DNA from: a virus
Virus record (IMG/VR): IMGVR_UViG_3300034272_003646
Coordinates: 1-21,724 of that record
Direction: 5' to 3' (one strand)
Length of the DNA: 21,724 nt
The notes under the pieces are model-generated. The model saw only the letters and a program-made list of their open reading frames with translations, was not told the origin of the DNA and ran no database searches. Below are positions 3,159 to 20,959 of this stretch, one piece after another (position 1 is the first letter of the stretch; each line of letters opens with the position of its first letter). Made by a program: the position numbers and the translations under genes.

Positions 3159-3322
3159 TGTTGATTTATCTATTGTGCGGTATGTTTCTCACTGGAACAA
3201 TAGAAGTATTAGCACTATATAATGCAATGGCTCGAATGAGTTGGCCCCAAAGAATTTTTATGATTCTACTTTGGCCAATCATTTTGATTTTTTTCTTACA
3301 TGAATTAACAAAAGATGAATAA
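3158..3322 (+). CDS. Tiny membrane protein, 54 aa, two TM segments
   Basis: ATG 3158 overlaps the DUF3310 stop (TAATG), and the stop TAA 3320 overlaps the methyltransferase start by 8 bases. The product begins MLIYLLCGMFLTGTIEVLAL (first hydrophobic segment), has a short polar loop AMARMSWPQR, then a second hydrophobic segment with FMILLWPIILIFFL, and ends HELTKDE. The basic loop between the two helices suggests it faces the cytoplasm, with both ends outside. It fills an otherwise empty 160-base gap between two firm genes. No family recognised. Confidence 0.72.
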   Translation: MLIYLLCGMFLTGTIEVLALYNAMARMSWPQRIFMILLWPIILIFFLHELTKDE

Positions 3323-4175
3323 AATTAAAACAATAATTAACGGTGACTGTATTGAGGTCATGAAAACCCTGGACGAAGGTTCAGTGGATTTGATAGTGAC
3401 ATCTCCACCTTACGGGGTTGGGATTGATTACGATGTTCACGATGATGATATGATATGGGAGCAATATGTAAAATTTACATATTCCTGGATGGAACAGGCT
3501 TACCGAGTTCTTAAAGACGACGGTAGGATTGCTTTGAACATTCCATATGAGATTAATCGTCAGGATAAAGGTGGTAGAATCTTTATGGTCAGTGAAGTAT
3601 GGCAGATTATGAAACAGATTGGTTACAAGTTCTTCGGAGTTGTTGACCTTGAAGAAGAATCTCCACACAGAAGTCGTACCACAGCTTGGGGGTCTTGGAT
3701 GAGTCCCTCAGCACCATACATCTACAATCCAAAGGAATGTGTCATTTTGGCCTACAAAAAGAACCACATCAAAAAGGTCAAAGGTGAACCTGAATGGGTT
3801 GGTGAACTTGGAGAAAGAGAAGATAAGAACGGTGTGATGAAACCCAAAACTTTCTACACCGAAGCTCAGAAAAGAGAGTTTATCGATTTGGTATTTGGAC
3901 AATGGAATTACTTTGCCGACACTCGAAGTTTAACCAAAGCCACATTCTCGATGGACATACCCACAAAGGCAATCAAAATTCTTACCTATAAGAATGATGT
4001 TGTTCTTGACCCGTTTGCCGGTTCAGGTACTTCTTTGGTGGCTGCAGAGGTTTTAGATAGACAATGGATTGGTATTGAGTTGAGTCCACAATATGCCGAG
4101 GTTGCTCGAAAAAGAGTGAATACCTTTGTTGAAGAAAAACGACAACAAGTATTGGAATTCAATAAAGAGAATTAA
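3315..4175 (+). CDS. DNA methyltransferase, N6/N4 beta class
   Basis: 286 residues with the DNA_methylase N6/N4 (PF01555) layout: GDCIEVMKTL (10-19), VDLIVTSPPYGVG (24-36, catalytic motif IV, TSPPY), DDGRIALNIP (68-77) and, near the C terminus, VLDPFAGSGTSLVAA (230-244, SAM-binding motif I) then WIGIELSP. Catalytic motif before SAM motif defines the beta class. Such enzymes methylate exocyclic amino groups of A or C at a short target; the sequence does not tell which base or site. In a phage it would protect virion DNA from restriction or regulate expression. It is the last gene of the overlapping run, and a strong terminator follows 6 bases after the stop. Confidence 0.93.
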   Translation: MNKIKTIINGDCIEVMKTLDEGSVDLIVTSPPYGVGIDYDVHDDDMIWEQYVKFTYSWMEQAYRVLKDDGRIALNIPYEINRQDKGGRIFMVSEVWQIMKQIGYKFFGVVDLEEESPHRSRTTAWGSWMSPSAPYIYNPKECVILAYKKNHIKKVKGEPEWVGELGEREDKNGVMKPKTFYTEAQKREFIDLVFGQWNYFADTRSLTKATFSMDIPTKAIKILTYKNDVVLDPFAGSGTSLVAAEVLDRQWIGIELSPQYAEVARKRVNTFVEEKRQQVLEFNKEN

Positions 4176-5644: not shown

Positions 5645-6019
5645 ATGAAAAAATTTATTATTACAGAAGAAGAAAAAAATTCAATCTTAAATCAACATAT
5701 CCAAGCGACAAAAAGACAATATTTGTCAGAGAATAATATCTTAATGGAACAACCATATTTTTTGGAACCTTCCGAGGTCTTTGAAATTCAAAGTGGTTTG
5801 AATGATTATTTCAAAAGTAAGGGTGTGAAAATTGTAATTGTACCTGATGGTGCATGGGGACCTAAAACTATTGAAGCTCTAAAAAAGTTCCAACAAATGG
5901 AAGGATTAGATGTTGATGGAAAAATGGGACCAAAAACTATGTCCAAATTACAATCACTTGGAATTAATCAAAATATAATCAGTAAAATTGGTTCTGCTAT
6001 TGCGAGCTTATTCAAATGA
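5645..6019 (+). CDS. Peptidoglycan-binding protein with leader
   Basis: 124 residues. The N terminus MKKFIITEEEKNSILNQHI resembles the leaders of the genes at 4247 and 16727; candidate processing sites LSE (27-29) and LME (33-35) lack A/G/S after the Glu, so cleavage is less well supported here. Residues 41-106 form a PG_binding_1 domain (PF01471): EIQSGLNDYF, then DGAWGPKTIEALKKFQ (68-83) and GLDVDGKMGPKTMSKLQSLG (87-106), with the duplicated D-G-x-x-G-P-K-T signature. The domain binds cell-wall peptide; no hydrolase domain is attached, so it may anchor another virion component or help cell-wall passage. It ends in a hydrophobic helix (ISKIGSAIASLFK). Overlaps the next gene by ATGA. Confidence 0.85.
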   Translation: MKKFIITEEEKNSILNQHIQATKRQYLSENNILMEQPYFLEPSEVFEIQSGLNDYFKSKGVKIVIVPDGAWGPKTIEALKKFQQMEGLDVDGKMGPKTMSKLQSLGINQNIISKIGSAIASLFK

Positions 6020-7422
6020 AAAAAATAATCAATGAGTCGGGTTTAAGAGATATTAAAGCCTTAGCGGAGAGATACCCTAAGGCTAAAATTTATTTTCACC
6101 AAGACCTTGATGGGGTGACTACAGCACTTGCCATGAAAAACTATTTGGAGAACAATGGAATTAAAGTTGTTGATTCTGAAGTTATTCAATATGGTGATAA
6201 AGAATTTGCAGTCAAGAAAACTGATGCCAATGGAGATGTAATGCCTGTTTTGGTAGATTTTGCTCACGGAAAACCAATGTTTGTGATTCATACAGACCAC
6301 CATGATAGACAAGCTGGTGCTGAAGAAACTGGTGCAAAATCTTTTAGACCTTCCCGCTCCAACGTTGAGACAATATCTCAAATTGTTTCTCCAAAAGATA
6401 TTTTCCCTGAGACAGACCTTAGATTAATTTCTACGATAGACTCTGCTGACTTTGCAAAATATGATATCACTCCTGAACAAGTAATGAATTACATATTCAG
6501 AATCGATAAGGATAAGAGTCTATTACAGAACAAGTTTGCAATGGGAATGGTTCTTAATAAATTGTTATTGGCCTTCAAGAACAAACCAAAGTTTTTAGAA
6601 AACTTGGTAATGAATTCAGGTCCTTCTTTATATTCAATCCTGAACCAAATTAAAAAAGAAATGGGTGAAAGAAAATTACCCAAGCCTGAAGATTTGGTTT
6701 CAAACCAAGCATCATACATCAAACAAATGAAGGATTCACGAAGTGTGAATGTTATGGATAATATCATCGTTCAATACGGAGGTGGTAACATGATGAAACC
6801 AGGTTCATATGATAGATACACACCATTCAAAAATAATCCTGAGACGGACTTTTTGGTTATCGCTTGGCCATTAGGATTGTTACAAGCCTCATGTAATCCC
6901 TTTAAGAAAGATAGAGAACTAAAAGGCGTGAACTTAGGTGATATTGCTCAAGAGGTTTTATCTAAGTGGGAATCACAATTGAAATCCAAAAGAGTACCTC
7001 TGTCAACTATTAAGTACGTTTCCGAAAGTTCAATAGGTCCTATGTCCGTTGGATTTACCTTCAAAGATTTCAAAGCACTTTACGGGGACAAATTTGAAGA
7101 ATTGGAAAATGGTGAGTTGTTGATGAAACAAATTCAATATGTTATGTCTCTGCCTTACAAAGAATTGACTGAAAAACAATTCGAAATGTTAGATAAGATA
7201 GGAGTATCTGCTTGGGATTTGATTCAGGCCAATTCAGGAGGTCACAAGTGTATCACGAATATTTCGGGTTTGAACTATCTCGGAAGAGCTCCAAGACCAA
7301 ACGACGACCCATACCGTTACAATCAAGAATCCGAGGACGCTCCGTATATCAAATTTGTAAGAATGTTACAGAAAGAATTTGTAACTAAACTACAAGAAAA
7401 GATTGAAGCTTCTAAGGCTTAA
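6016..7422 (+). CDS. DHH-family phosphoesterase-like enzyme with leader
   Basis: 468 residues. After the short N terminus MKKIINESGLRDIKAL (INE before S8 fits a prohead-protease site) comes a DHH domain as in RecJ and NrnA/oligoribonucleases: IYFHQDLDGVTTALAM (25-40, motif I, D30 and D32), LVDFAHG (79-85) and the signature HTDHHDR (92-98), with STIDSADFAK (139-148) as a later metal-ligand region. Near the C terminus NSGGHKCITNISGL (406-419) matches the DHHA1-type GGH substrate-binding loop. Such enzymes use Mn2+ to hydrolyse single-stranded DNA, nano-RNA or cyclic dinucleotides; the substrate is not evident. Longer than NrnA (about 320) with an inserted middle region. Its 3' end overlaps the convergent transglycosylase gene by 11 bases. 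Confidence 0.85.
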   Translation: MKKIINESGLRDIKALAERYPKAKIYFHQDLDGVTTALAMKNYLENNGIKVVDSEVIQYGDKEFAVKKTDANGDVMPVLVDFAHGKPMFVIHTDHHDRQAGAEETGAKSFRPSRSNVETISQIVSPKDIFPETDLRLISTIDSADFAKYDITPEQVMNYIFRIDKDKSLLQNKFAMGMVLNKLLLAFKNKPKFLENLVMNSGPSLYSILNQIKKEMGERKLPKPEDLVSNQASYIKQMKDSRSVNVMDNIIVQYGGGNMMKPGSYDRYTPFKNNPETDFLVIAWPLGLLQASCNPFKKDRELKGVNLGDIAQEVLSKWESQLKSKRVPLSTIKYVSESSIGPMSVGFTFKDFKALYGDKFEELENGELLMKQIQYVMSLPYKELTEKQFEMLDKIGVSAWDLIQANSGGHKCITNISGLNYLGRAPRPNDDPYRYNQESEDAPYIKFVRMLQKEFVTKLQEKIEASKA

Positions 7423-9207: not shown

Positions 9208-9231
9208 ACAACTTCAGGGTATTTATTGATT

Positions 9232-10149
9232 ATGAAATTAGTAAACCTATTACGGGAGGCTCTTATTAACGAGATTGAAAAAAAACCAAACCCATGTGAT
9301 TCATTGGGTGAAGGTAATAAGTTCTGTAAAGGTTTGCAAAATATATTATCCACAGGTACTGGTGGTAAAGGAGCTGAACTCCTTAAGAAAAAATCTTTTG
9401 ATATGTTCAAAGATTTAAGGGATGGAGATTACATCTCGATGGGGGACAAGATAGTATTACAACCAGGTAACAAACAATTTGAGGATAGAATTTCAGATAT
9501 GGTTTTGCTTACCAAAATCCTGAAAAAACACAATTCATGTTCTGCAATTGTCACAGCGGTGGAACAGGATATGAAAAAGTTGGCAACCAAAGGATTGACC
9601 ATGTTGGTTGATGATGAACAGAAATATTCATTGTTCAATAGAATCAACACACACTCGACAAACCAATCCTATATCATCACCTTGTTAGCCCTTGAGGAGA
9701 ATAAGAAAAAAGATTTCAAGTTTTATAAGATAGATACTTTTGACAATCGTCAAATCATCGAAGAGGTTACTGAATTATTGAATGACCCTTCAACTATGAG
9801 TAGGTTGGACACGTTGATATCAAACTTAATTAACAATCCCGACACTCAACAACAAATCTTGGATGCGTTTAATTATTCGAGAAATGTCGGTTACGCCGTT
9901 GAAGATGCTGGTTACAATGCTCTAAAATCAATAGGTTATGAAGTTTATCCCTTCTCAGATGACTTCGGTTTCATCGATTACTTCGGTATTGATATGATAG
10001 CCGTCGATGATAAGGGAGCTCATCCAGTTCAAGTATCATCCAAAATGAAATCAAATCCCAAAATATTTGATTGGGAAGCACCTGATTGTAAAGTATTTGC
10101 ATTGGCGAAGTCAGGAGACAAGTTCTTAAAATATTCACCACTCGCTTGA
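9232..10149 (+). CDS. Leader-bearing protein with possible PD-(D/E)xK-like C-terminal domain
   Basis: I chose ATG 9232; a TTG at 9226 would add two residues. Of 305 residues, the first 18 (MKLVNLLREALINEIEKK) form a short helix in which LRE before A10 fits the T4-type prohead cleavage rule. The middle is helical and polar, with CDSLGEGNKFCKG near 20-35. The C-terminal 70 residues, GYNALKSIGYEVYPF, FIDYFGIDMIAV and HPVQVSSKMKSNPK, resemble restriction-endonuclease-like folds, where D254 and the Q-V-S-S-K segment (Gln267, Lys271) would stand for the D...(E/Q)-x-K site, with irregular spacing. That reading is weak. If right, the phage would package a nuclease. A weak hairpin follows the stop. 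Confidence 0.8.
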   Translation: MKLVNLLREALINEIEKKPNPCDSLGEGNKFCKGLQNILSTGTGGKGAELLKKKSFDMFKDLRDGDYISMGDKIVLQPGNKQFEDRISDMVLLTKILKKHNSCSAIVTAVEQDMKKLATKGLTMLVDDEQKYSLFNRINTHSTNQSYIITLLALEENKKKDFKFYKIDTFDNRQIIEEVTELLNDPSTMSRLDTLISNLINNPDTQQQILDAFNYSRNVGYAVEDAGYNALKSIGYEVYPFSDDFGFIDYFGIDMIAVDDKGAHPVQVSSKMKSNPKIFDWEAPDCKVFALAKSGDKFLKYSPLA

Positions 10150-10159
10150 CGAAAACAAA

Positions 10160-10184
10160 AAAGTGATTATAGTTATATCACTTT
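10160..10184 (+). terminator. Weak hairpin, possible terminator
   Basis: AAAGTGAT (10160-10167) pairs with ATCACTTT (10177-10184) around a 9-nt loop, 11 bases after the stop of the preceding gene. The stem is A/T-rich and only three T follow the core, so termination would be leaky. The A tract in front of it makes it partly symmetrical. Confidence 0.45.
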
Positions 10185-10232
10185 GGTCGTTTTGGGGATA
10201 TTTATTAAAACCAAAAAAACTTTAGGAAAAGA

Positions 10233-10263
10233 TTTGACAGATTGAAAATTTGTTGTATCTTTG
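10233..10263 (+). promoter_or_regulatory. Bacteroidota-type promoter for the large RNA
   Basis: TTTG (10233-10236) and TATCTTTG (10256-10263) are separated by exactly 19 nt, matching the Bacteroidota primary-sigma consensus TTTG-N19-TAnnTTTG. Transcription would begin about 7 bases later, near 10270, just before the first RNA hairpin. It is the best promoter in the window together with the one at 19442. Confidence 0.82.
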
Positions 10264-10269
10264 TATAAC

Positions 10270-11117
10270 AAAACGGGGGTAACACCCCGAACGTTCTTTA
10301 TAAAGCCAATTTACCCCCCTAAAGTGAATTGGTACCGAATGGGCGGTTTAGCGTCCTTAGATAACCCCGGCAACGGGACTAAAGGGGACAAAAGGGTTTA
10401 GCGACCCAAGTAGTTCCGCAGGTCATTGACCTGACAACTAAACAAAGTACCTACGGTGAAGACCCTGACGGCAAGTGCTGAGGGGAGGACACCACTCCGA
10501 TTTTGTAGAGAATCGGGGTTGAGATGGAGACATCAATAGGAAAAGGTACAGGTGACGGTTTGAGACATCCCGCCGGGTGTTGTAAAGCTGAGTACCAGTC
10601 TGAGGGGTTACCACGGGGTCAAACCTACCGTAGTCCTGATTGACCGTCAACTGGCGGGTTGACAGAGAGGTGTGAAGCATTTCGTTCCCAAAAGGAATGG
10701 ACCTTCTCCCGAAGCACATCTTTCATTATTCTACAAATAGCTACATATCAATGTGAATGATATTCTCAGATACAAGCGAAAGTCTTCGGGCGTTGATACT
10801 GAAAGGTGTCTAATCCTTCAGGTCATCGGACCAATGAAGGCATCAATCGGACCGCAAGTCCTTTGGTGTTGATTGTGAAAGTACTCGTGGGACTGCAATC
10901 CCTTAGTGAGCCCCGAAGGTTCAAGAGATATAACTAACAGTTGAGTTGGTGTCAACGAAAAGAGTGGTAGACTCAAATTACCGACACTGGTTGGTTACGA
11001 TAGGCAACTGTTGTGGACCGAGTGGGGAAAGGATAATCCCACCAAAGACTGACCACCTAAGCTCGTAGTCTCAGAGCATAGCCAGACCCTCATCGGATTT
11101 TTTCGGTGGGGGTTTTT
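10270..11117 (+). ncRNA. Large structured non-coding RNA, about 850 nt
   Basis: The stretch has its own host-type promoter, a terminator, no sensible ORF on either strand, and clearly higher G+C than its neighbours (31 of 60 in 10321-10380). It holds a dense set of helices: CGGGG/CCCCG at 10274-10289; a GCAA-capped hairpin 10366-10377; 10419-10433; long-range CTACGGT/ACCGTAG (10451-10457 with 10627-10633) enclosing GACCC/GGGTC (10461-10465 with 10616-10620); CCGATT/AATCGG at 10497-10516; a GAGA-capped hairpin 10523-10534; GGTAC/GTACC (10545-10549 with 10592-10596); GTCAAC/GTTGAC 10646-10663; 10668-10674 with 10715-10721; 10745-10763; 10815-10840; 10844-10875; and AACAGTTG/CAACTGTT (10936-10943 with 11005-11012) enclosing GTGTC/GACAC and GAGT/ACTC. 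Length, multidomain folding and phage context recall GOLLD/ROOL RNAs; class not proven. No tRNA, tmRNA or RNase P signature. Confidence 0.85.
11086..11117 (+). terminator. Terminator of the large RNA
   Basis: ACCCTCATCG (11086-11095) pairs with CGGTGGGGGT (11104-11113) over 10 pairs (two G-U), with an 8-nt T-rich loop, then TTTTT. Same stem family as the terminators at 4181, 16149 and 16677. Confidence 0.88.
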
Positions 11118-11179
11118 ATTTACAAGGGTTTACCAAGACAAGTTGTTCGATTAAATTCTTTTTATTAATCTAAAACTTA

Positions 11180-12130
11180 ATGAAAGATTTAATTTTAATT
11201 ACGGCTTATACACCAACTCCTAAATATGAGGATATTTTAGAACGAACAATTTTGTCTGTTAAAGATTTGGGTTTTGACATTTTGCTTATCAGCCATAGTC
11301 ACACACCACTCAAAATTCAAAAACTTTGTCAATATTATTTCTATGACCACCTAAATGATGTGAGTCAAGACCCTAACTTATTAGGATTCGAGTGGTTTAT
11401 TTTGGACGACTATGAAATTTGGTCAAAGTATAGAAACAAAAACTTTTATGGATTTGCTATTTACCGCATGTTTTCTATGGCGGCCAAAATAGCAAAAAAT
11501 TTCGGATACGATAGATTACATCATCTCGAATATGATACTCAAGTTTTAGACCTAAAAATATTCGAAGAACACAATCAACATCTTGAGAATCATGATGCAG
11601 TTTTTTATACATTCAATGGTAAAACTGAAGGTTTTTTGGTGGGATGCTTCAAATCATTTAATCTTTCCAATTTACCCCAAACTTTCGAAAATTATGACAA
11701 AGAACATATGAGTAATACGATGATAAATCTACCTTGTGTTCCTTTGGAAAATTACACTAAACATATTTTCAAAAATCTGAATGTAAAATTTTTAGCTAGT
11801 GAAACTATCAAGAACAGAATATTCGTTGAAAACATACCTGATAGAAAAAAACACTTTACTATGTTTTACAATCCCTTCAAACAAAAAGTTGATTTTTTTA
11901 TCAAAAACTCTTGGACTGAAAATCAAAAACTGATGGTTATCACCAATGAGAACCAAATTCAAAAAATTAATGTACCACCATACCATTGGATTATTAGAAC
12001 ATTATGTGATATAAATGATTTCAAAAGTTTAATGATTTTCCAAGACAATTCCTTAATTTACGAATTTAGGATTAACAATTCCGACGAGCTCGAAATTTTC
12101 AAATTAAATGCGTTTAGCAAAATGAAATGA
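11180..12130 (+). CDS. Glycosyltransferase-like protein (GT-A type, tentative)
   Basis: 316 residues. It opens MKDLILITAYTPTPKYEDIL, then LERTILSVKDLGFDILLISHS, the Rossmann-like nucleotide-binding start of GT2-like glycosyltransferases. YDRLHHLEYDTQVLD (110-124) has an E-Y-D in the place of the metal-binding D-x-D. The second half is less conserved and rich in Asn, Lys and Phe. It would transfer a sugar from a nucleotide donor; the acceptor is unknown. It heads a cassette with a NeuD-like acyltransferase and a DegT-like aminotransferase, supporting a role in surface-glycan or modified-sugar synthesis. Overlaps the next gene as ATGA (12127-12130). It lies 62 bases after the RNA terminator; no consensus promoter is visible in the gap. 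Confidence 0.65.
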   Translation: MKDLILITAYTPTPKYEDILERTILSVKDLGFDILLISHSHTPLKIQKLCQYYFYDHLNDVSQDPNLLGFEWFILDDYEIWSKYRNKNFYGFAIYRMFSMAAKIAKNFGYDRLHHLEYDTQVLDLKIFEEHNQHLENHDAVFYTFNGKTEGFLVGCFKSFNLSNLPQTFENYDKEHMSNTMINLPCVPLENYTKHIFKNLNVKFLASETIKNRIFVENIPDRKKHFTMFYNPFKQKVDFFIKNSWTENQKLMVITNENQIQKINVPPYHWIIRTLCDINDFKSLMIFQDNSLIYEFRINNSDELEIFKLNAFSKMK

Positions 12131-12960
12131 AAAAAATTATTAACTTTACTCCTACAGGTACTCAAACTAATAGACAAAATTCTTTTGCACCTTTAACTCC
12201 AAATGAAATTATAGAGGAGGTCCACATGGCTGAGGAATTGGGGATTTCAATAGTGCATTTGCATGCGCGAGATGAAATAACATTAGAAAATACATATAAA
12301 AAAGAAGTTTATCAAAAAATTATGGAAGGGATAAAAAAATATTGTCCCGATTTGTTGATTTGTGTTTCACTAACAGGTAGAAACTTTCCTGAGTTAGAAA
12401 AAAGGTCTGAAGTTTTACAATTACATCCAGACATGGGTTCACTGACTATGTCGTCACTGAATTTTCCCACGGGTGCGTCAATTAATCAACCTGAAATGAT
12501 TCTGTCGTTGATTAACGAAATGGACAAATATGGTGTTCAACCAGAAATAGAGTGTTTTGACTCAGGAATGCTGAATTACACAAACTATCTTATTTCAAAA
12601 AACATACTAAAACCTCCACATCATATTAATGTTATTTTGGGAAATATTTATAATTCGCAATGCGATTTGAATACTTTGGCAACTATCAAGAATAATCTAC
12701 CAACAAATTCATTTACTTGCTTGGGAGGAATAGGTTCCCAACAATTAAAAAGCACCACACATGGTTTGTTGGACTTCGATGGAATTAGGATAGGTTTAGA
12801 GGATAATCTCTACTTCAAAAATAAAGAAAAGACCACAAACGTAGAACTACTTAAACGTGTTCATAGGATAATGAACGAATTAAATTTGGTTCAATACACA
12901 TCTGTTGAGTTAAAAGAAAAAGGGTATGGAAACAAAATTACTGGTTTTAGGAAAGGGTGA
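12127..12960 (+). CDS. BKACE family (DUF849) beta-keto acid cleavage enzyme-like
   Basis: 277 residues, close to the family's usual length. FAPLTPNEIIEEVHMAEELG (20-39), SIVHLHARDE (41-50, with the H-x-H that binds zinc), a strand-loop with SLTGRNFP, and near the C terminus DGIRIGLEDNLYF, the equivalent of the family's R-V-G-L-E-D-N block whose Glu is, from memory, the third zinc ligand in the lysine-fermentation enzyme Kce. The TIM-barrel order is intact. Members condense a beta-keto acid with acetyl-CoA and split it to acetoacetate and a CoA ester; the G-G-H before R in most members is replaced by F-D-G, so specificity probably differs. Very unusual in a phage and, by its 4-base and 35-base overlaps, locked into the sugar cassette. 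Confidence 0.85.
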   Translation: MKKIINFTPTGTQTNRQNSFAPLTPNEIIEEVHMAEELGISIVHLHARDEITLENTYKKEVYQKIMEGIKKYCPDLLICVSLTGRNFPELEKRSEVLQLHPDMGSLTMSSLNFPTGASINQPEMILSLINEMDKYGVQPEIECFDSGMLNYTNYLISKNILKPPHHINVILGNIYNSQCDLNTLATIKNNLPTNSFTCLGGIGSQQLKSTTHGLLDFDGIRIGLEDNLYFKNKEKTTNVELLKRVHRIMNELNLVQYTSVELKEKGYGNKITGFRKG

Positions 12961-13567
12961 TAATGTTATCACCATGATTTTGGATAATCTGTATTCAACG
13001 AATCGGATAAATCCAAAAATACACATCTACAACAATTTGGATTTACCATTGATTAATACTTTTCACCACGATGCGTTCGAAATAAAAGTACTTAACAATT
13101 TGAATATACATGATTATGAAAAAATTGTTTTGGGTGTCTATCAACCGTCACACAAGAAAAAAATTATTGAGATTCTTGGTCCTGATATAAATAAGTTTGT
13201 CAATATCATTCATATTGGTTTGGACCTTTCTTACACCAGCACACTTGGTCGGGGTATACTAATTAACTCTAAGGTTTCAATCGCAGCCCACACAACTTTA
13301 GGAGACTTTGTTTCAATCAATAGAAACGTTTCTATAGGTCATCACACGATTATCAATGATTATTGTTCGATTAATCCGGGTGTAAACATTGCGGGGAACG
13401 TAACCGTGGGAGAAGGAACGACCATAGGAATGGGTACAAATGTATTACATGAGGTAAAAATTGGTAAGAATGTAATCATTGGGGCGGGTTCTGTTGTAAA
13501 TAAAGACATTCCTGATAATGTTGTTGCTTACGGTTCACCATGTAAAATTGTTAGAGAAAATGGCTAA
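12926..13567 (+). CDS. NeuD/PglD-like sugar O- or N-acyltransferase
   Basis: 213 residues. The N terminus (METKLLVLGKGDNVITMIL) is the small Rossmann-like domain of NeuD/PglD proteins. From about residue 95 a left-handed beta helix of hexapeptide repeats follows: STLGRGILINSKVSIAAH, TLGDFVSINRNVSIGHH, TIINDYCSINPGVNIAGN, VTVGEGTTIGMGTNVLHE, VKIGKNVIIGAGSVVNKDIP and the closing VVAYGSPCKIVREN. The H-H after VSIG is where the catalytic His sits in this family. Such trimers transfer an acetyl group from acetyl-CoA to an amino or hydroxyl group of a sugar nucleotide or sialic acid. It overlaps the upstream gene by 35 bases and the next by 8, so the three are likely co-translated. Confidence 0.9.
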   Translation: METKLLVLGKGDNVITMILDNLYSTNRINPKIHIYNNLDLPLINTFHHDAFEIKVLNNLNIHDYEKIVLGVYQPSHKKKIIEILGPDINKFVNIIHIGLDLSYTSTLGRGILINSKVSIAAHTTLGDFVSINRNVSIGHHTIINDYCSINPGVNIAGNVTVGEGTTIGMGTNVLHEVKIGKNVIIGAGSVVNKDIPDNVVAYGSPCKIVRENG

Positions 13568-14189
13568 CGGGGCTTATAAAATTACTGAAGAGTTCGAACG
13601 ATTGTTGTGTGATTATACTGGAGCACCCTATGCGGTTGCTTTAGATAATCAATCAAATGCATTATTTTTATCCTTATATTATGAAAAAATTACGGGTAAA
13701 CAAATATCAATCCCCTCAAGAACTTATCCCTCCGTACCATGTGAAATAATACATGCGGGTGGTAAAGTTAATTTCGAAAAAAGTGAGGGAAATACGTTAA
13801 AAGGTGCTTATCAATTAAAACCAACAAAAGTTTGGGATAGTGCTCTGAGATTTACTTCAGACATGTATATTCCAAATACTCACATGTGTATATCATTTAC
13901 AGGACCTTATAAACATCTCAAACTATCAAAGGGTGGTGCGATATTAACAGATGACCATGACGCTTATCTTTGGTTCAAAAGGGCTCGATACAGTGGAAGA
14001 AATGAATGTTCTTATCACGAAGATAATTTTGATATGTTGGGATGGAATTTTTATATGATTCCTGAACTCGCCACAAGAGGTGTTCTAATGATGGCACAGT
14101 TTTATCACTACGATGGAAGAAAAAAATCCAATCCGGACATAGAACTCCCTTATCCTGATTTATCGAATTATCCAATTTATACATCTTAA
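13560..14189 (+). CDS. Short DegT/DnrJ/EryC1-type aminotransferase-like protein
   Basis: I placed the start at ATG 13560, overlapping the upstream gene by 8 bases; the frame is open from 13518 inside that gene. The 209-residue product carries DegT-family landmarks: TGAPYAVALDNQSNALFLSL (20-39), WDSAL (92-96, Asp for the PLP ring nitrogen), SFTGPYKHLKLSKGGAILTDD (112-132, with K118 as the likely PLP lysine) and GWNFYMIPELATRG. Full-length sugar aminotransferases have about 370 residues; here the C-terminal domain is almost absent, so it may be a natural short form or need a partner. It would aminate a keto-sugar for the adjacent acyltransferase. Last gene of the cassette. Confidence 0.82.
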   Translation: MANGAYKITEEFERLLCDYTGAPYAVALDNQSNALFLSLYYEKITGKQISIPSRTYPSVPCEIIHAGGKVNFEKSEGNTLKGAYQLKPTKVWDSALRFTSDMYIPNTHMCISFTGPYKHLKLSKGGAILTDDHDAYLWFKRARYSGRNECSYHEDNFDMLGWNFYMIPELATRGVLMMAQFYHYDGRKKSNPDIELPYPDLSNYPIYTS

Positions 14190-14190
14190 T

Positions 14191-14209
14191 TTGGAAATTT
14201 ATTTTCCAA
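14191..14209 (+). terminator. Hairpin after the sugar cassette
   Basis: TTGGAAA (14191-14197) pairs with TTTCCAA (14203-14209) around a 5-nt loop, 2 bases after the stop. The next T run, seven T, starts 10 bases later at 14220, so this is a weak or composite terminator. Confidence 0.5.
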
Positions 14210-14220
14210 GTATAGTGGGT

Positions 14221-14251
14221 TTTTTTATTCCAAAACTTTGCCGTACATTTG
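14221..14251 (+). promoter_or_regulatory. 31-nt promoter repeat, copy 1
   Basis: Six T followed by ATTCCAAAACTTTGCCG and then TACATTTG (14244-14251), a perfect TAnnTTTG -7 element. The 31 bases recur exactly at 16168-16198. The T tract sits in the -33 slot, as if a terminator tail doubles as the upstream part of the promoter. A start near 14257 would coincide with ATG 14256, so the message may be leaderless. Confidence 0.72.
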
Positions 14252-14255
14252 GACT

Positions 14256-14819
14256 ATGGAACATTTCTCTATAGATAAAGTCTCAACCGCAATAAAAGTG
14301 GGTAACATCAAGTCTTGTATTCACAAGAGTAAAAAATGGATTGTAGAGTGGAATGTGTCATTAGGTAAACAACTAACACAAAATAATGGTCGAGTTTATT
14401 TTATTGTTGTTAATGGTAATATTTACAAAATTGGTGGTTCACAAGACTCTAAAGGAATTAAAGGTACTTTCAATTGGTATCAGAATTCTGCTTTCACCGG
14501 AGGACCCTCTTTGAGGACTCATGGAATTCATGTATTAATTCATGATGAATTGGAGAAGGGAAACGTTGTAGAAATTTATATGATTGTTTCTACAAAAGTA
14601 ATCGCCGAAGTCCCAGGATTGTTTGGTGTTGAAAAAAAATTGGTCAATATCGATTTCAAGGAAATTGAGAATACTTGTAAAGAAGACTATAAAATGAAAT
14701 GCGGAAGATACCCAAAATGGAATTTCCAAGAAAATGGTGAAGAGTGGGATATTAAATTGGTAGAATCTTGGAATTTGGTAAATAATACTATGACAAAAAA
14801 AAGAAAGGAAAAAAAATAA
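14256..14819 (+). CDS. Possible GIY-YIG-like nuclease or DNA-binding protein
   Basis: I chose ATG 14256; an upstream frame extension (14238) lies inside the promoter. 187 residues. GRVYFIVVNGNIYKIGGSQ (about 45-63) looks like the start of a GIY-YIG domain (V-Y-F-I ... Y-K-I-G), followed by KGIKGTFNWYQ, GGPSLRTHGIHVLIHDEL and YMIVSTKVIAEVPGLFGVEKKL, ending with YPKWNFQENGEEW and a Lys-rich tail. Phage proteins of this shape (T5orf172/GIY-YIG relatives) are often nucleases, but the catalytic Arg/Glu pair cannot be assigned with confidence. It precedes a Dam-type methyltransferase by 48 bases, which suggests a restriction-modification-like or self-protected nuclease pair. The nuclease call is inference. 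Confidence 0.72.
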   Translation: MEHFSIDKVSTAIKVGNIKSCIHKSKKWIVEWNVSLGKQLTQNNGRVYFIVVNGNIYKIGGSQDSKGIKGTFNWYQNSAFTGGPSLRTHGIHVLIHDELEKGNVVEIYMIVSTKVIAEVPGLFGVEKKLVNIDFKEIENTCKEDYKMKCGRYPKWNFQENGEEWDIKLVESWNLVNNTMTKKRKEKK

Positions 14820-14867
14820 CAACTGGTCATAATTGATTGTGGAAAATAAGTTAATATATTTATATTG

Positions 14868-15755
14868 ATGAAAACACCAATAAGATACGCAGGAGGAAAG
14901 AGTAAGGCAATAAAAATTATTTCACCTTATTTGGATAAAGAAACAAAGATTGTTTCACCCTTCATGGGTGGAGGTTCTTTGGAAGTCAATTGGGCCTCCA
15001 AAGGTATTGAAGTCATCGGATACGATTTGTTTGATGTCTTGGTTAATTTTTGGCAGACTCTTCAAACAAATAAAACTGAATTGGTAAAAAAACTCAAGGA
15101 AATACAACCAACTTCAGAAGAATACCATAGAATTAAAGAGATTTTGATGAAATGGGATAACACCCAACAAATGTTAAAAGATTGGAAAACTGACCATTAT
15201 AAACGAGATGATGTCGTTGAATTAGACAGTGTTACTGCTGCGGCATTTTATTATTTCAATCACAATACTTCATATGGTCCTGGATATTTAGGTTGGGGTT
15301 CATCAGTATACCTGAAGAAAAACAAGTGGGATAAAATGATTCAAAATATTGAGAATTTTTCAGTAGCTACACTAAGTGTTAAACAATCTAGTTTCGAGAG
15401 TGTCTTACCTAATCACGTTCATGATTCCCTTTATTTAGACCCACCATATTACTTGGAAAAAGATAAAGACAATAAAATGTTTACAGGAATCTATCCTATG
15501 AGAAACATTCCAATTCATCATGATGGATTCAATCACGAATTACTCCGTGACCTACTTCACAAACACAAAGGTAAATTTGTGTTATCTTACAATAATTGTG
15601 AAACCATTAGAGAATATTATAAAGATTTTGAACAGGTTTTCCCCAAGTGGAACTATTCAATGGGTAATGGTGAAAAAAGGATAGGTAAAAACCGAGAAGA
15701 GGCTGGTATAACTAATAGTAAAGACTCTCATGAAATATTAATAATAAAGAGATAA
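14868..15755 (+). CDS. N6-adenine DNA methyltransferase, Dam/D12 class
   Basis: Start ATG 14868, preceded by ATATTTATA (14856-14864); a TTG just before it is less likely. 295 residues of MethyltransfD12 (PF02086) type: TPIRYAGGKSKAIKII (3-18), IVSPFMGGGSLEV (28-40, SAM-binding F-x-G-G-G), EVIGYDLFD (48-56), the central target-recognition region with AFYYFNHNTSY and SSVYLKKNKW, and SLYLDPPYYL (187-196, catalytic DPPY). SAM motif before DPPY marks the alpha class, different from the beta-class enzyme at 3315. Dam-like enzymes methylate adenine, commonly in GATC; the exact site cannot be read from the sequence. Confidence 0.92.
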   Translation: MKTPIRYAGGKSKAIKIISPYLDKETKIVSPFMGGGSLEVNWASKGIEVIGYDLFDVLVNFWQTLQTNKTELVKKLKEIQPTSEEYHRIKEILMKWDNTQQMLKDWKTDHYKRDDVVELDSVTAAAFYYFNHNTSYGPGYLGWGSSVYLKKNKWDKMIQNIENFSVATLSVKQSSFESVLPNHVHDSLYLDPPYYLEKDKDNKMFTGIYPMRNIPIHHDGFNHELLRDLLHKHKGKFVLSYNNCETIREYYKDFEQVFPKWNYSMGNGEKRIGKNREEAGITNSKDSHEILIIKR

Positions 15756-15767
15756 AAATCATTTCAT

Positions 15768-16142
15768 ATGTGGCAAGTAAACATTACAATCAACAATAAC
15801 ACAGGGTACAACTTAACCATAGATGGTGTTGGTCCTGGTAATACCACCATGGTTCCTAACTCAACATTCAGTTGGTCTTCAACTGAGGTTCATAACACCA
15901 AGAGTCTATTGTTTTGGGTTGAACAGAATGTATGGTATATGCAAGGTAACTTGTCGTTTGGACCTGAGGCGGGAGTCTATGTGGACCGTGGATGGATGGC
16001 CGACAACGACCAAACCATTGAGATGGTAGCAAATGCAAACGGTAAGGAATGGACTCAGACATCAAACGGAGGAGAAACACTTCTTCAGTGGAACGAATTT
16101 GAAAATGGTGGAAATATAACACTGACCTTCAACAAACAATAA
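15768..16142 (+). CDS. Unknown beta-rich protein, 124 aa
   Basis: ATG 15768 follows the methyltransferase stop by 12 bases. The product starts MWQVNITINNNTGYNLTIDG and has many Asn, Thr, Gly and Trp in alternating patterns (MVPNSTFSWSSTEVHNTK, WVEQNVWYMQGNLSFGPEAG, NITLTFNKQ), suggesting a beta sandwich. The first strand and NNNTGYNL recall the start of aegerolysin/actinoporin-type lysins, but no diagnostic residue is present, so I do not assign it. No signal peptide. A terminator follows 6 bases after the stop. Confidence 0.78.
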   Translation: MWQVNITINNNTGYNLTIDGVGPGNTTMVPNSTFSWSSTEVHNTKSLLFWVEQNVWYMQGNLSFGPEAGVYVDRGWMADNDQTIEMVANANGKEWTQTSNGGETLLQWNEFENGGNITLTFNKQ

Positions 16143-17361: not shown

Positions 17362-19428
17362 ATGAAAAAATTTATTCTTTTGATGTTTATGACTTTGATG
17401 TCTATAACATCGTTTGCTTCCCACTTAGCAGGTGGAGACATCCAATACAAATACATTGGAGATTCAACGGGAATTCCAAATCACTACAAAGTATTATTAA
17501 GGGTATACCGTGATGTTACGGGTATTGCGATGCCAACAACAGATATTGTTACAGTCAGTTCTGGTTGTTATGCAAATCAAACCATAAACATGAATTTGAT
17601 GGCTGGTTCTGGAACTGTTGCACCGACACTTTTTGATTGTGTTACTCCTGGCTCTCCATCTACAAAAACTTTGGAAATTTATCTTTATAGAGGATATGTT
17701 GTTCTACCGGGAACTTGTCCTACTTTTAAGTTTTGGTATGATAACTGCTGTAGACCAGGAAACATAACTAACATATTTACATCCAATGGTACCTTGGGGA
17801 ATGATGGTTTCTTCTTCGATGCTGACTTGGATAACACTCTTGGTAACAACTCATCACCAATATTCATATCAGAACCAGTACGTGCCTTTTGTGTAAATAA
17901 CAGCTTCAATTGGGCTCAGAAAAGTGTGGAATATGATGGTGATAGTATTCATTATCAATTAATTGCCTGTCGTGAGAATGCCTACCCAAATCAAACCAAT
18001 ATTCCATTTGACCCAGGATATAGTGTAAACCAACCTGTGACATCGCAATATTTTACGATTAACCCCAAGACTGGAACCATTTCGTTCAAACCCACACAAC
18101 AAGAAATTGATGTATTGGCAATCAAAATTAGTGAATATCGTTTCGATTCTTTATGGGGTGTTTGGTATCAGGTTGGTTCGGCATCAAGGGACATGATGAT
18201 TGGTATTTCAGCTAACTGCTCTCCCTTGGCAATGCAAGGAGTCAAATTGGACTACAACTATCCAGGTCAATACTTGGATTCAATTACGATGTTGCCTGCG
18301 GTTGATTACAATTGTGGTGATACGGCAATTGATTTACATTTTGCAATCAAATTGGATTGTGAATCTGTTGCTGATGATGGAACTGATTTTCGTTTGACAA
18401 ATCCTTTGGGGCAACCTTTACCAATAAAGAAGTTGGTACCTCAATGTGATATTAACGGTGAGAGTTCCGTTCTTACGGTGATACTTCAATATCCTCTTTT
18501 GGTGAATGGAAGATATTTCCTATATTCCAAAACTGGTAATGATGGTAATACTTTGGTTAATAAGTGTGGTATCGCCATGAATGAATTTGACACCTTGGTT
18601 ATTGTTGTTGATGATTGTTTTGAACCCGTTTGGAAATTTGAAAACGTCACGGTGGTTAATGATAATCACACAATGTTACAATGGAGTATTGACACCAATA
18701 GTTTTGATACAACCTATTTCCAAGGATATGGAATTTTCCGTTGGGATGGAACACAATATGCTTTTCGTCAATTAGTTACAGATTGGGACCGTTTGTACTA
18801 TGATGATTTGATGGCAACTAATGTTGATGGACAACCTTACGATTACAAAATAGATTTCAGATTCAATAACTTTATTTTCGGTCCGTCGGATTCTATACAT
18901 TCGATTCATTTACAATCAAATGGAGAATGTGATTCGGTTTGTTTAGTTTGGAATTCCTATAATGGATGGGCGTTTCCTTTATATGATGTTTATATCAATT
19001 ATCAGAACACATGGATTAAGTGGAATAACCAACCAATAGTTGATACCACTTATTGTATGGTCTCAGATACCTTAGAGGTAGGAAATTATGATATCAAGGT
19101 TGTTGCTGAAAATCTACCCTATTTAAGTGAAAGTAACTGGGTTAAATGTACACAACCCGCACCACCTGTGATAACAATTCCAAACGTTGTCACACCTAAT
19201 CAAGATGGTATTAATGAAAGTTTTATAATTAGAAACCTTTTACTTTATGATTATAGACCAATCGTTATTAAGAATAGATGGGGAAGAACGGTTTTTCAAA
19301 GTTCTCAATATAACAACGATTGGGATGGAAGCAATGTTCCTGATGGTGTTTATTATGGTATGGTGAGTATCATAATGAATAACCAATTGGTAAGTTATCC
19401 ATTCATGGTTACAATTCTACATCATTAA
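17362..19428 (+). CDS. Secreted T9SS type-B cargo protein with CHU_C sorting domain
   Basis: 688 residues. MKKFILLMFMTLMSITSFA is a classic signal peptide, cleaved before SHLAGG. The next part, GGDIQYKYIGDS...VLLRVYRDVTG, is the usual N-terminal domain of large Bacteroidota CHU_C proteins. The centre has repeated beta-sandwich-like strands with many Cys (e.g. WYDNCCRPGN), as in adhesins. The last 83 residues are the gliding-motility-associated C-terminal domain (PF13585/TIGR04131): IPNVVTPNQDGINESF (606-621), IKNRWGRTVF (636-645), NDWDG (652-656) and VPDGVYYG. This domain directs export by the type IX system and attachment or release at the outer surface. A phage copy would be handled by the infected cell's machinery; role unknown. 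ATACTTATT precedes the ATG. Confidence 0.9.
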   Translation: MKKFILLMFMTLMSITSFASHLAGGDIQYKYIGDSTGIPNHYKVLLRVYRDVTGIAMPTTDIVTVSSGCYANQTINMNLMAGSGTVAPTLFDCVTPGSPSTKTLEIYLYRGYVVLPGTCPTFKFWYDNCCRPGNITNIFTSNGTLGNDGFFFDADLDNTLGNNSSPIFISEPVRAFCVNNSFNWAQKSVEYDGDSIHYQLIACRENAYPNQTNIPFDPGYSVNQPVTSQYFTINPKTGTISFKPTQQEIDVLAIKISEYRFDSLWGVWYQVGSASRDMMIGISANCSPLAMQGVKLDYNYPGQYLDSITMLPAVDYNCGDTAIDLHFAIKLDCESVADDGTDFRLTNPLGQPLPIKKLVPQCDINGESSVLTVILQYPLLVNGRYFLYSKTGNDGNTLVNKCGIAMNEFDTLVIVVDDCFEPVWKFENVTVVNDNHTMLQWSIDTNSFDTTYFQGYGIFRWDGTQYAFRQLVTDWDRLYYDDLMATNVDGQPYDYKIDFRFNNFIFGPSDSIHSIHLQSNGECDSVCLVWNSYNGWAFPLYDVYINYQNTWIKWNNQPIVDTTYCMVSDTLEVGNYDIKVVAENLPYLSESNWVKCTQPAPPVITIPNVVTPNQDGINESFIIRNLLLYDYRPIVIKNRWGRTVFQSSQYNNDWDGSNVPDGVYYGMVSIIMNNQLVSYPFMVTILHH

Positions 19429-19954: not shown

Positions 19955-20959
19955 ATGTTAAAAGCAGACATCATTGTCGACCTTCAAGCGGGAGACACAG
20001 GTAAGGGTAAAGTTGCTCACGCCTTGGCAAAAAAACCAAATTACTACACTCACGTTGTTCGTTATAACGGAGGAGGAAATGCCGGTCATACCGTATATCA
20101 TAATGGTAAAAAGTTTGTGACACATTACATTCCTGTGGGTGTATTGTATGGGATTAAATCTATCATTGGACCTGGTTGTGTTGTGGACCCCGACAAGTTG
20201 GATATCGAAATTGCTGAATTGGAAAATGCGGGATTTGTTGTCCGTGGTAACTTATTTATTGATAAGAGAGTCCACATTATTACACCTGAAAATATCTTGG
20301 AAGATTCCAAAGACACCAAGATTGGTACTACAAAAACTGGAAATGGTCCAACCTATCGTAACAAATATGACCGTAAGGGTCTAAGAGCTGAGGATTTTTA
20401 TATTGATGATTGTCTCATTGACATTTATCGTGAATTCCACCAACATCAACCAAATGCACAAATTCTATTCGAGGGGGCTCAGGGATTCGAGTTGGACATT
20501 GACTGGGGTGATTACCCCTATGTTACATCATCACATTGCACCGTTGGTAGTGCAATTATGAATGGTGTGCCTCCCCAGTCAATCAACCGAGTTTATGGAA
20601 TTGCCAAAGCATATCGAACTTATGTCGGGGCGAAAGACTTCGAGGGAAAAGACCCTATCTTTAATAAGATACGTGAGGTTGGTGAGGAGTATGGTGCAAC
20701 AACTGGTCGACCACGACAAGTAAATTGGTTGAACATTGATGATTTAATGAAAGCAACCAACATCAATGGTGTTACTGATTTAATCATCAACAAAATTGAT
20801 ATTTTGGAAAAAGTTGGAGTCTTCAAATTAATTGATGGTTATGACATTAGAGAGTTCACTAACTTGGAGGACTTCAAGGACCACATTCGAGATTTGGTTA
20901 CCATATATTGTCCAACAGTAGAACATGTAAATTTTTCGGACACCCCGTTTGACATTTAA
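19955..20959 (+). CDS. purA: Adenylosuccinate synthetase (PurA/PurZ superfamily)
   Basis: 334 residues with all main PurA blocks: VDLQAGDTGKGKVA (8-21, P-loop-like GTP site, catalytic Asp14 present), RYNGGGNAGHTV (36-47, His45), GTTKTGNGPTYRNKYDRKGLR (124-144), FEGAQGFELDIDWGDYPYVTSS (172-193), GATTGRPR (247-254) and INKIDIL (278-284). PurA joins IMP and Asp with GTP to make adenylosuccinate, on the way to AMP. Bacterial PurA has about 430 residues; archaeal PurA and phage PurZ have about 340, like this one. In PurZ, which makes the 2-aminoadenine precursor, the Asp equivalent to 14 is, from memory, replaced by Ser or Gly; here it is kept, so normal PurA activity is more likely. It would raise dATP supply for an AT-rich phage. 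Confidence 0.93.
   Translation: MLKADIIVDLQAGDTGKGKVAHALAKKPNYYTHVVRYNGGGNAGHTVYHNGKKFVTHYIPVGVLYGIKSIIGPGCVVDPDKLDIEIAELENAGFVVRGNLFIDKRVHIITPENILEDSKDTKIGTTKTGNGPTYRNKYDRKGLRAEDFYIDDCLIDIYREFHQHQPNAQILFEGAQGFELDIDWGDYPYVTSSHCTVGSAIMNGVPPQSINRVYGIAKAYRTYVGAKDFEGKDPIFNKIREVGEEYGATTGRPRQVNWLNIDDLMKATNINGVTDLIINKIDILEKVGVFKLIDGYDIREFTNLEDFKDHIRDLVTIYCPTVEHVNFSDTPFDI

Follow-up and report, generated by a model that had tools for sequence, protein, structure and literature searches.

A GOLLD RNA gene of a putative Bacteroidota phage with a boxA-like leader that probably recruits rRNA-type antitermination

It is, to our knowledge, an open question how phages produce an untranslated RNA of 850 nt in the amounts that 14-copy cages require. 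In the 21.7-kb virus record analyzed here, hereafter the window, the protein genes at 9226-10149 and 11180-12130 are separated by a gap, and the stretch in this gap is a gene of about 850 nt for a GOLLD RNA, the phage copy of a known class whose expression goes up during lysis. It probably belongs to a Bacteroidota phage and carries an rRNA-type boxA leader, which would act by antitermination, and the RNA would then assemble into a 14-copy cage. The first-pass annotation had described the gap as richer in G+C than its surroundings and without a usable ORF, and both descriptions hold, with a G+C fraction of 0.46-0.48 against about 0.35 outside, and with no plus-strand ORF of at least 50 amino acids in the gap, where the only ORFs are antisense ones of 93 and 52 amino acids. 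The promoter, terminator, and tetraloops that it had picked out are also there: TTTG (10233-10236) and TATCTTTG (10256-10263) match exactly with 19 nt between them, the terminator is a 14-pair stem with a T tail (11084-11115), and the tetraloops GCAA (10370-10373) and GAGA (10527-10530) are both loops of conserved hairpins. The RNA folds more strongly than chance, at -293.9 kcal/mol (z = -5.1, with 0 of 20 shuffles as strong). The elements of the gene are as follows.

10233-10263, plus strand: Bacteroidota-type promoter TTTG-N19-TATCTTTG; elements of the TAnnTTTG type lie 5' of the RNA in most relatives.
10274-10289, plus strand: leader hairpin CGGGG-GTAACA-CCCCG, seen directly, in a boxB-like position just 5' of boxA.
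10293-10303, plus strand: boxA-like element GTTCTTTATAA, with GTTCTTT conserved in relatives and the same element in Bacteroidia 16S leaders.
10305-10332, plus strand: predicted hairpin of the leader, GCCAATTTA...TGAATTGG, 3' of boxA and 5' of the RNA core, from the MFE fold of the window sequence alone.
10341-10664, plus strand: GOLLD 5' domain, outside the Rfam model, with covarying helices.
10665-11077, plus strand: GOLLD 3' domain (Rfam RF02032).
10735-10778, plus strand: variable linker, unconserved in length and sequence, placed by comparison with PMC12286853.
11084-11117, plus strand: intrinsic terminator, the stem with its T tail.

The gap had been proposed to hold a large structured phage RNA that was either a member of the GOLLD or ROOL classes or something new, and it is the GOLLD branch of that proposal that stands. 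The Rfam GOLLD covariance model (RF02032) matches 10665-11077 across model positions 1-416 with 295 bits against a gathering score of 150, and the ROOL, OLE, and HEARO models have no match in 10150-11200 at the gathering score, nor at E values up to 5. The GOLLD match covers the conserved 3' half alone, and the 5' half (10341-10664), which is in no Rfam model, is conserved together with the 3' half in about 100 IMG/VR contigs. Searching with the whole window RNA by nhmmer gave full-length homologues in IMG/VR loci, which numbered 100 after a second scan, some of them overlapping or near-identical; all 26 relatives that were scored with the GOLLD model are above its cut-off, and the 24 loci returned by a stricter 3' pattern scan were every one already in the homologue set. 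A signature of the 5' half is present in 107 viral stretches and in none of 84,980 bacterial and archaeal genomes, and a survey of 399 Bacilli genomes, which found no GOLLD, is uninformative because it scored only three candidates per genome. The RNA has the size and layout of the class, being longer than about 800 nt and made up of a conserved 3' domain and a distinct 5' domain that is conserved less well. GOLLDs are encoded by phages or prophages, often near tRNA genes; the gene described here is in a virus record, and four relatives have a tRNA-Met gene upstream. Two distant GOLLDs (L121 and L214) share the 3' half only.

Covariation supports helices in both the 5' and the 3' domains. RNAalifold on an alignment of 24 non-redundant sequences (A1) gives 190 pairs, 97 of which have two-sided changes. 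In the 5' domain of the same 24 sequences there are 17 helices with 82 pairs, in which 98.9% of the cells are paired, and two-sided compensatory changes are seen in 44 of these 82 pairs; none of 500 shuffles does as well. When the partner strand is slid by 1-3 columns the pairing falls to 31-46%, although this control is lenient because the structure was derived from the same alignment, and more weight falls on the number of doubly changed pairs. A different outcome was obtained for the long-range helices read by eye in the first pass (CTACGGT/ACCGTAG, GACCC/GGGTC, and AACAGTTG/CAACTGTT), which are perfect in this sequence but are not conserved in the 24 relatives, where they are 70.0% paired against a shuffle mean of 68.4% and contain 6 doubly changed pairs against 6.4. 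Most of their bases belong to other, covarying helices, and they are mostly chance complementarity within one sequence. Compensatory change, which had been proposed as the check on this RNA, is thus found in the conserved helices and fails in the long-range helices that had been listed for it.

The comparator structure for contacts beyond the helices is GOLLD env-38, which was solved by cryo-EM as a self-assembled hollow cage of 14 copies that is made of RNA only and has the variable linker inside (Kretsch et al. 2025, PMC12286853). An APC-corrected mutual-information screen of 37 sequences, which have an effective number of about 23 and for which the scores are z-scores and not calibrated E-values, had 44 of its 60 top pairs in helices of the secondary structure and gave non-nested pairs as well. 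Three loop pairings of about five bases with compensatory change were read from the alignment letters after the screen, and they are given here with one further loop.

10570-10574 with 10653-10657, plus strand: loop pairing within the 5' domain (CCGCC/GGCGG, CTGTC/GACAG, CTGCA/TGCAG, CGCCA/TGGCG).
10504-10508 with about 10730-10734, plus strand: loop pairing of the 5' domain with the start of the linker (GTGGA/TCCAC, GTAGA/TCTAC, GAGGG/TCCTC).
10707-10711 with 10786-10790, plus strand: loop pairing that forms a pseudoknot in the 3' domain (CCCGA/TCGGG, CTCGA/TCGAG, CCTGA/TCAGG).
10893-10898, plus strand: loop at the L21a position (bridge B8 in the solved cage), with a palindromic center.

Two covarying single pairs, 10961:10973 and 11018:11068, match the env-38 contacts L22-J17/22 and L27-J24/26, the latter of which is a contact of L27 with a linker; here the numbering of stems L22, L27, and L21a is inferred from the available text of PMC12286853. 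L21a in the solved cage kisses its own copy on another chain (PMC12286853), and the loop at this position has a central GC in 37 of 37 sequences and a four-base palindrome (GGCC, TGCA, or AGCT) in 28 of them. The positions that correspond to the L20-J13/15 kissing contact are nearly invariant, with a joint change in three sequences. The covarying contacts of the env-38 type, together with the palindromic L21a loops, make it likely that this RNA assembles into a cage.

The leader between the promoter and the RNA core is otherwise unconserved in the relatives, and it holds one conserved block, GTTCTTTGAAATATT, of which the window copy is GTTCTTTATAA, agreeing with the GAAATATT consensus for seven bases and then diverging from it. 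Those seven bases, GTTCTTT, are present in 42 of 47 leaders from loci that are mutually <95% identical, whereas 200 rounds of dinucleotide shuffling put them in 2.0 leaders on average and in 6 at most; of the other five leaders, four read GTTCTTACA and one reads ATTCTTTGAAA. The 47 loci are not independent, since their common gene order makes them look like a single phage lineage; when they are clustered by RNA-core identity, GTTCTTT is found in 11 of 12 clusters at 85% and in 8 of 8 at 80%. The longer GTTCTTTGAA has 34 copies in 878 kb (both strands) of these loci, which equals the number of GOLLD leaders in which it occurs, 34. A hairpin lies just 5' of the element in about half of the relatives, with stems that differ yet stay paired. 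The distant GOLLDs L121 and L214, which have another type of 5' half, have no boxA-type element near the RNA, and the claim made here is therefore confined to this lineage and is not one about GOLLD in general.

The same element is found in the rRNA leaders of Bacteroidota. The hits of a genome scan with the 16-mer GTTCTTTGAAATATTG, many of them chance matches, include several Bacteroidota contigs that stop shortly past the match, as is common where an assembly breaks at an rRNA operon, and others in which a 16S rRNA starts 72-203 nt downstream. A covariance model was used separately to find 16S genes, for the most part in genomes of the class Bacteroidia, and 27 of the 34 leaders of these genes contain GTTCTTTGA, with near variants such as GTTCATTGAAAATATTG in several of the others; a few of the genomes came via the 16-mer scan and hence are not independent of it, and the rest are independent. 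The element sits well downstream of the promoter in the 16S leaders. Its sequence also matches published boxA: a Legionella CRISPR array has GTTCTTTAAAA as its boxA, and expression of this untranslated array rises about 10-fold once boxA is added (PMC7862264). The boxA of rRNA operons is both required and enough on its own for the antitermination complex to be built, via NusB and S10 (PMC10250234). The GOLLD element thus shares its sequence with the host 16S leader and is placed between a promoter and a long untranslated RNA, and it is because it corresponds to both the 16S-leader element and a published boxA that we read the GOLLD leader as a mimic of an rRNA leader. We found no prior report of a boxA-type leader on GOLLD in the open-access literature, and this speaks only weakly for novelty.

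Three features point to a Bacteroidota host: the kind of promoter, the element in the leader, and a protein that carries a sorting domain for type IX secretion. This protein (17362-19428, plus strand) is phage-encoded and 688 amino acids long, with a CHU_C type IX sorting domain at its end (Pfam E 4.9e-16, with TIGR04131 just below its cut-off), and it may be exported by the type IX system of the host. Upstream of the RNA, the genes for a DNA methylase, a DUF3310 protein, a DHH-domain protein, and a NUDIX protein keep their order in most relatives, so GOLLD has a stable place in one phage lineage. The DHH-domain protein (6016-7422, plus strand), for which the Pfam match is weak and below cut-off, is upstream of GOLLD in 39 relatives at a median identity of 65%; it was considered as a protein partner of GOLLD and rejected, as other genes are equally conserved in fixed order and no specific evidence was found, and its position next to GOLLD probably reflects shared phage gene order. 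On the 3' side, nothing from 11180-16142 was found in the relatives, many of whose loci hold <1 kb of downstream sequence. This side includes a surface-sugar cassette just 3' of GOLLD (12127-14189, plus strand), also not found in relatives, with a BKACE-type enzyme, a NeuD-like sugar acetyltransferase, and a DegT-type aminotransferase fragment (223 amino acids against a 360-position profile) in a row. Elsewhere in the 21.7 kb, DNA methyltransferases of two families are encoded, with one gene for N6_N4_Mtase (3315-4175, plus strand) and one for MethyltransfD12 (14865-15755, plus strand), as well as an adenylosuccinate-synthetase-like protein (19955-20959, plus strand) that keeps the motif GDTGKGK, for which the PurA models are well below their cut-offs and PurZ, an enzyme of 2-aminoadenine synthesis, scores 121 bits against 300; the phage may modify its DNA bases.

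With moderate confidence, we propose that this Bacteroidota phage lineage copies the leader of the host rRNA operon, namely the promoter, often a boxB-like hairpin, and boxA, and that the host machinery for rRNA antitermination and folding makes GOLLD in the way that it makes rRNA. The nascent leader would bind host NusB and S10 at boxA, which would convert RNA polymerase to an antitermination complex of the rRNA type, and the untranslated and heavily structured 850-nt transcript could then be completed despite Rho and pausing, with the antitermination machinery perhaps also aiding co-transcriptional folding. The finished RNA would self-assemble without protein into a hollow cage of 14 copies that encloses the variable linker. 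Its cargo can only be guessed at, ribosome- or tRNA-related material being one example.

An alternative is that the GOLLD gene is an ordinary one and that GTTCTTT belongs to the promoter, or to the initially transcribed sequence of stable-RNA genes, where it would affect the choice of start site or the stability of the 5' end and have no role in antitermination. This would suit the nearly half of the leaders in which the element starts 5-7 nt past TAnnTTTG, near the expected start site, but in the remaining leaders it is about 20-70 nt 3' of the promoter, behind a hairpin, with its sequence kept, and the alternative is weakened because the distance to the promoter varies widely and the sequence does not. 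Given also the match to the published boxA and to the 16S-leader element, which is itself well 3' of the promoter, we regard this alternative as unlikely. It is much less probable still that GTTCTTT is an accident of common descent in one phage lineage with an undiverged leader, as the common upstream gene order might suggest, since the surrounding leader cannot be aligned, the length of the leader and the position of the element vary, the element is kept in all clusters at 80% core identity, and the identical sequence is found in host 16S leaders. Finally, a new class of large phage RNA that is neither GOLLD nor ROOL, which could be argued from the lack of any blastn match to the RNA in 50,697 phage records and from the absence of the 5' half from Rfam models, can be dismissed as having next to no likelihood, because the RF02032 match is full-length at about twice the cut-off and the covariation reproduces contacts seen in the solved GOLLD.

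The reading of the leader as an rRNA-leader mimic can also be set against known systems. The env-38 GOLLD is similar in length (833 nt, compared with about 850 here), in having a 3' domain of 413 nt, and in being phage-encoded with a separate 5' domain and a variable linker. It has a tRNA-Met upstream, as do some relatives here (L190:1697-1771, L209:8985-9059, L011:3292-3364, and L047:11069-11143), whereas the window itself has no tRNA gene; the RNA described here is known from sequence and has a boxA-type leader, which is not mentioned for env-38 in the available text of PMC12286853. In one of these relatives, L209, a second GTTCTTTAAAA is directly 5' of the tRNA-Met, and in L121 a tRNA lies inside the GOLLD linker (L121:6343-6408), with five further tRNAs at that locus. 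The Bacteroidota rrn leader likewise has a TAnnTTTG promoter followed by an element of the GTTCTTTGAAATATTG type before a long untranslated structured RNA, but here such a leader drives a phage RNA and the window copy is GTTCTTTATAA. In the case of the boxA that precedes CRISPR arrays (Stringer et al., cited in PMC7862264), it is also 5' of a long untranslated transcript that is not rRNA, though that transcript is a cellular array for which the function has been shown, while here a function is proposed for a phage structural RNA. ROOL is another large phage-associated RNA that forms cages, of eight copies (PMC12286853), but its sequence and fold differ, and the window has no Rfam ROOL match.

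The alignment of the 5' domain extends a family for which the Rfam model covers the 3' half only. A host rRNA-type boxA leader would be a simple and testable answer to how the RNA is supplied, and it would tie a giant phage RNA to the machinery of rRNA synthesis. The seven-base element would then be a handle on the RNA, the cage, and the infection.
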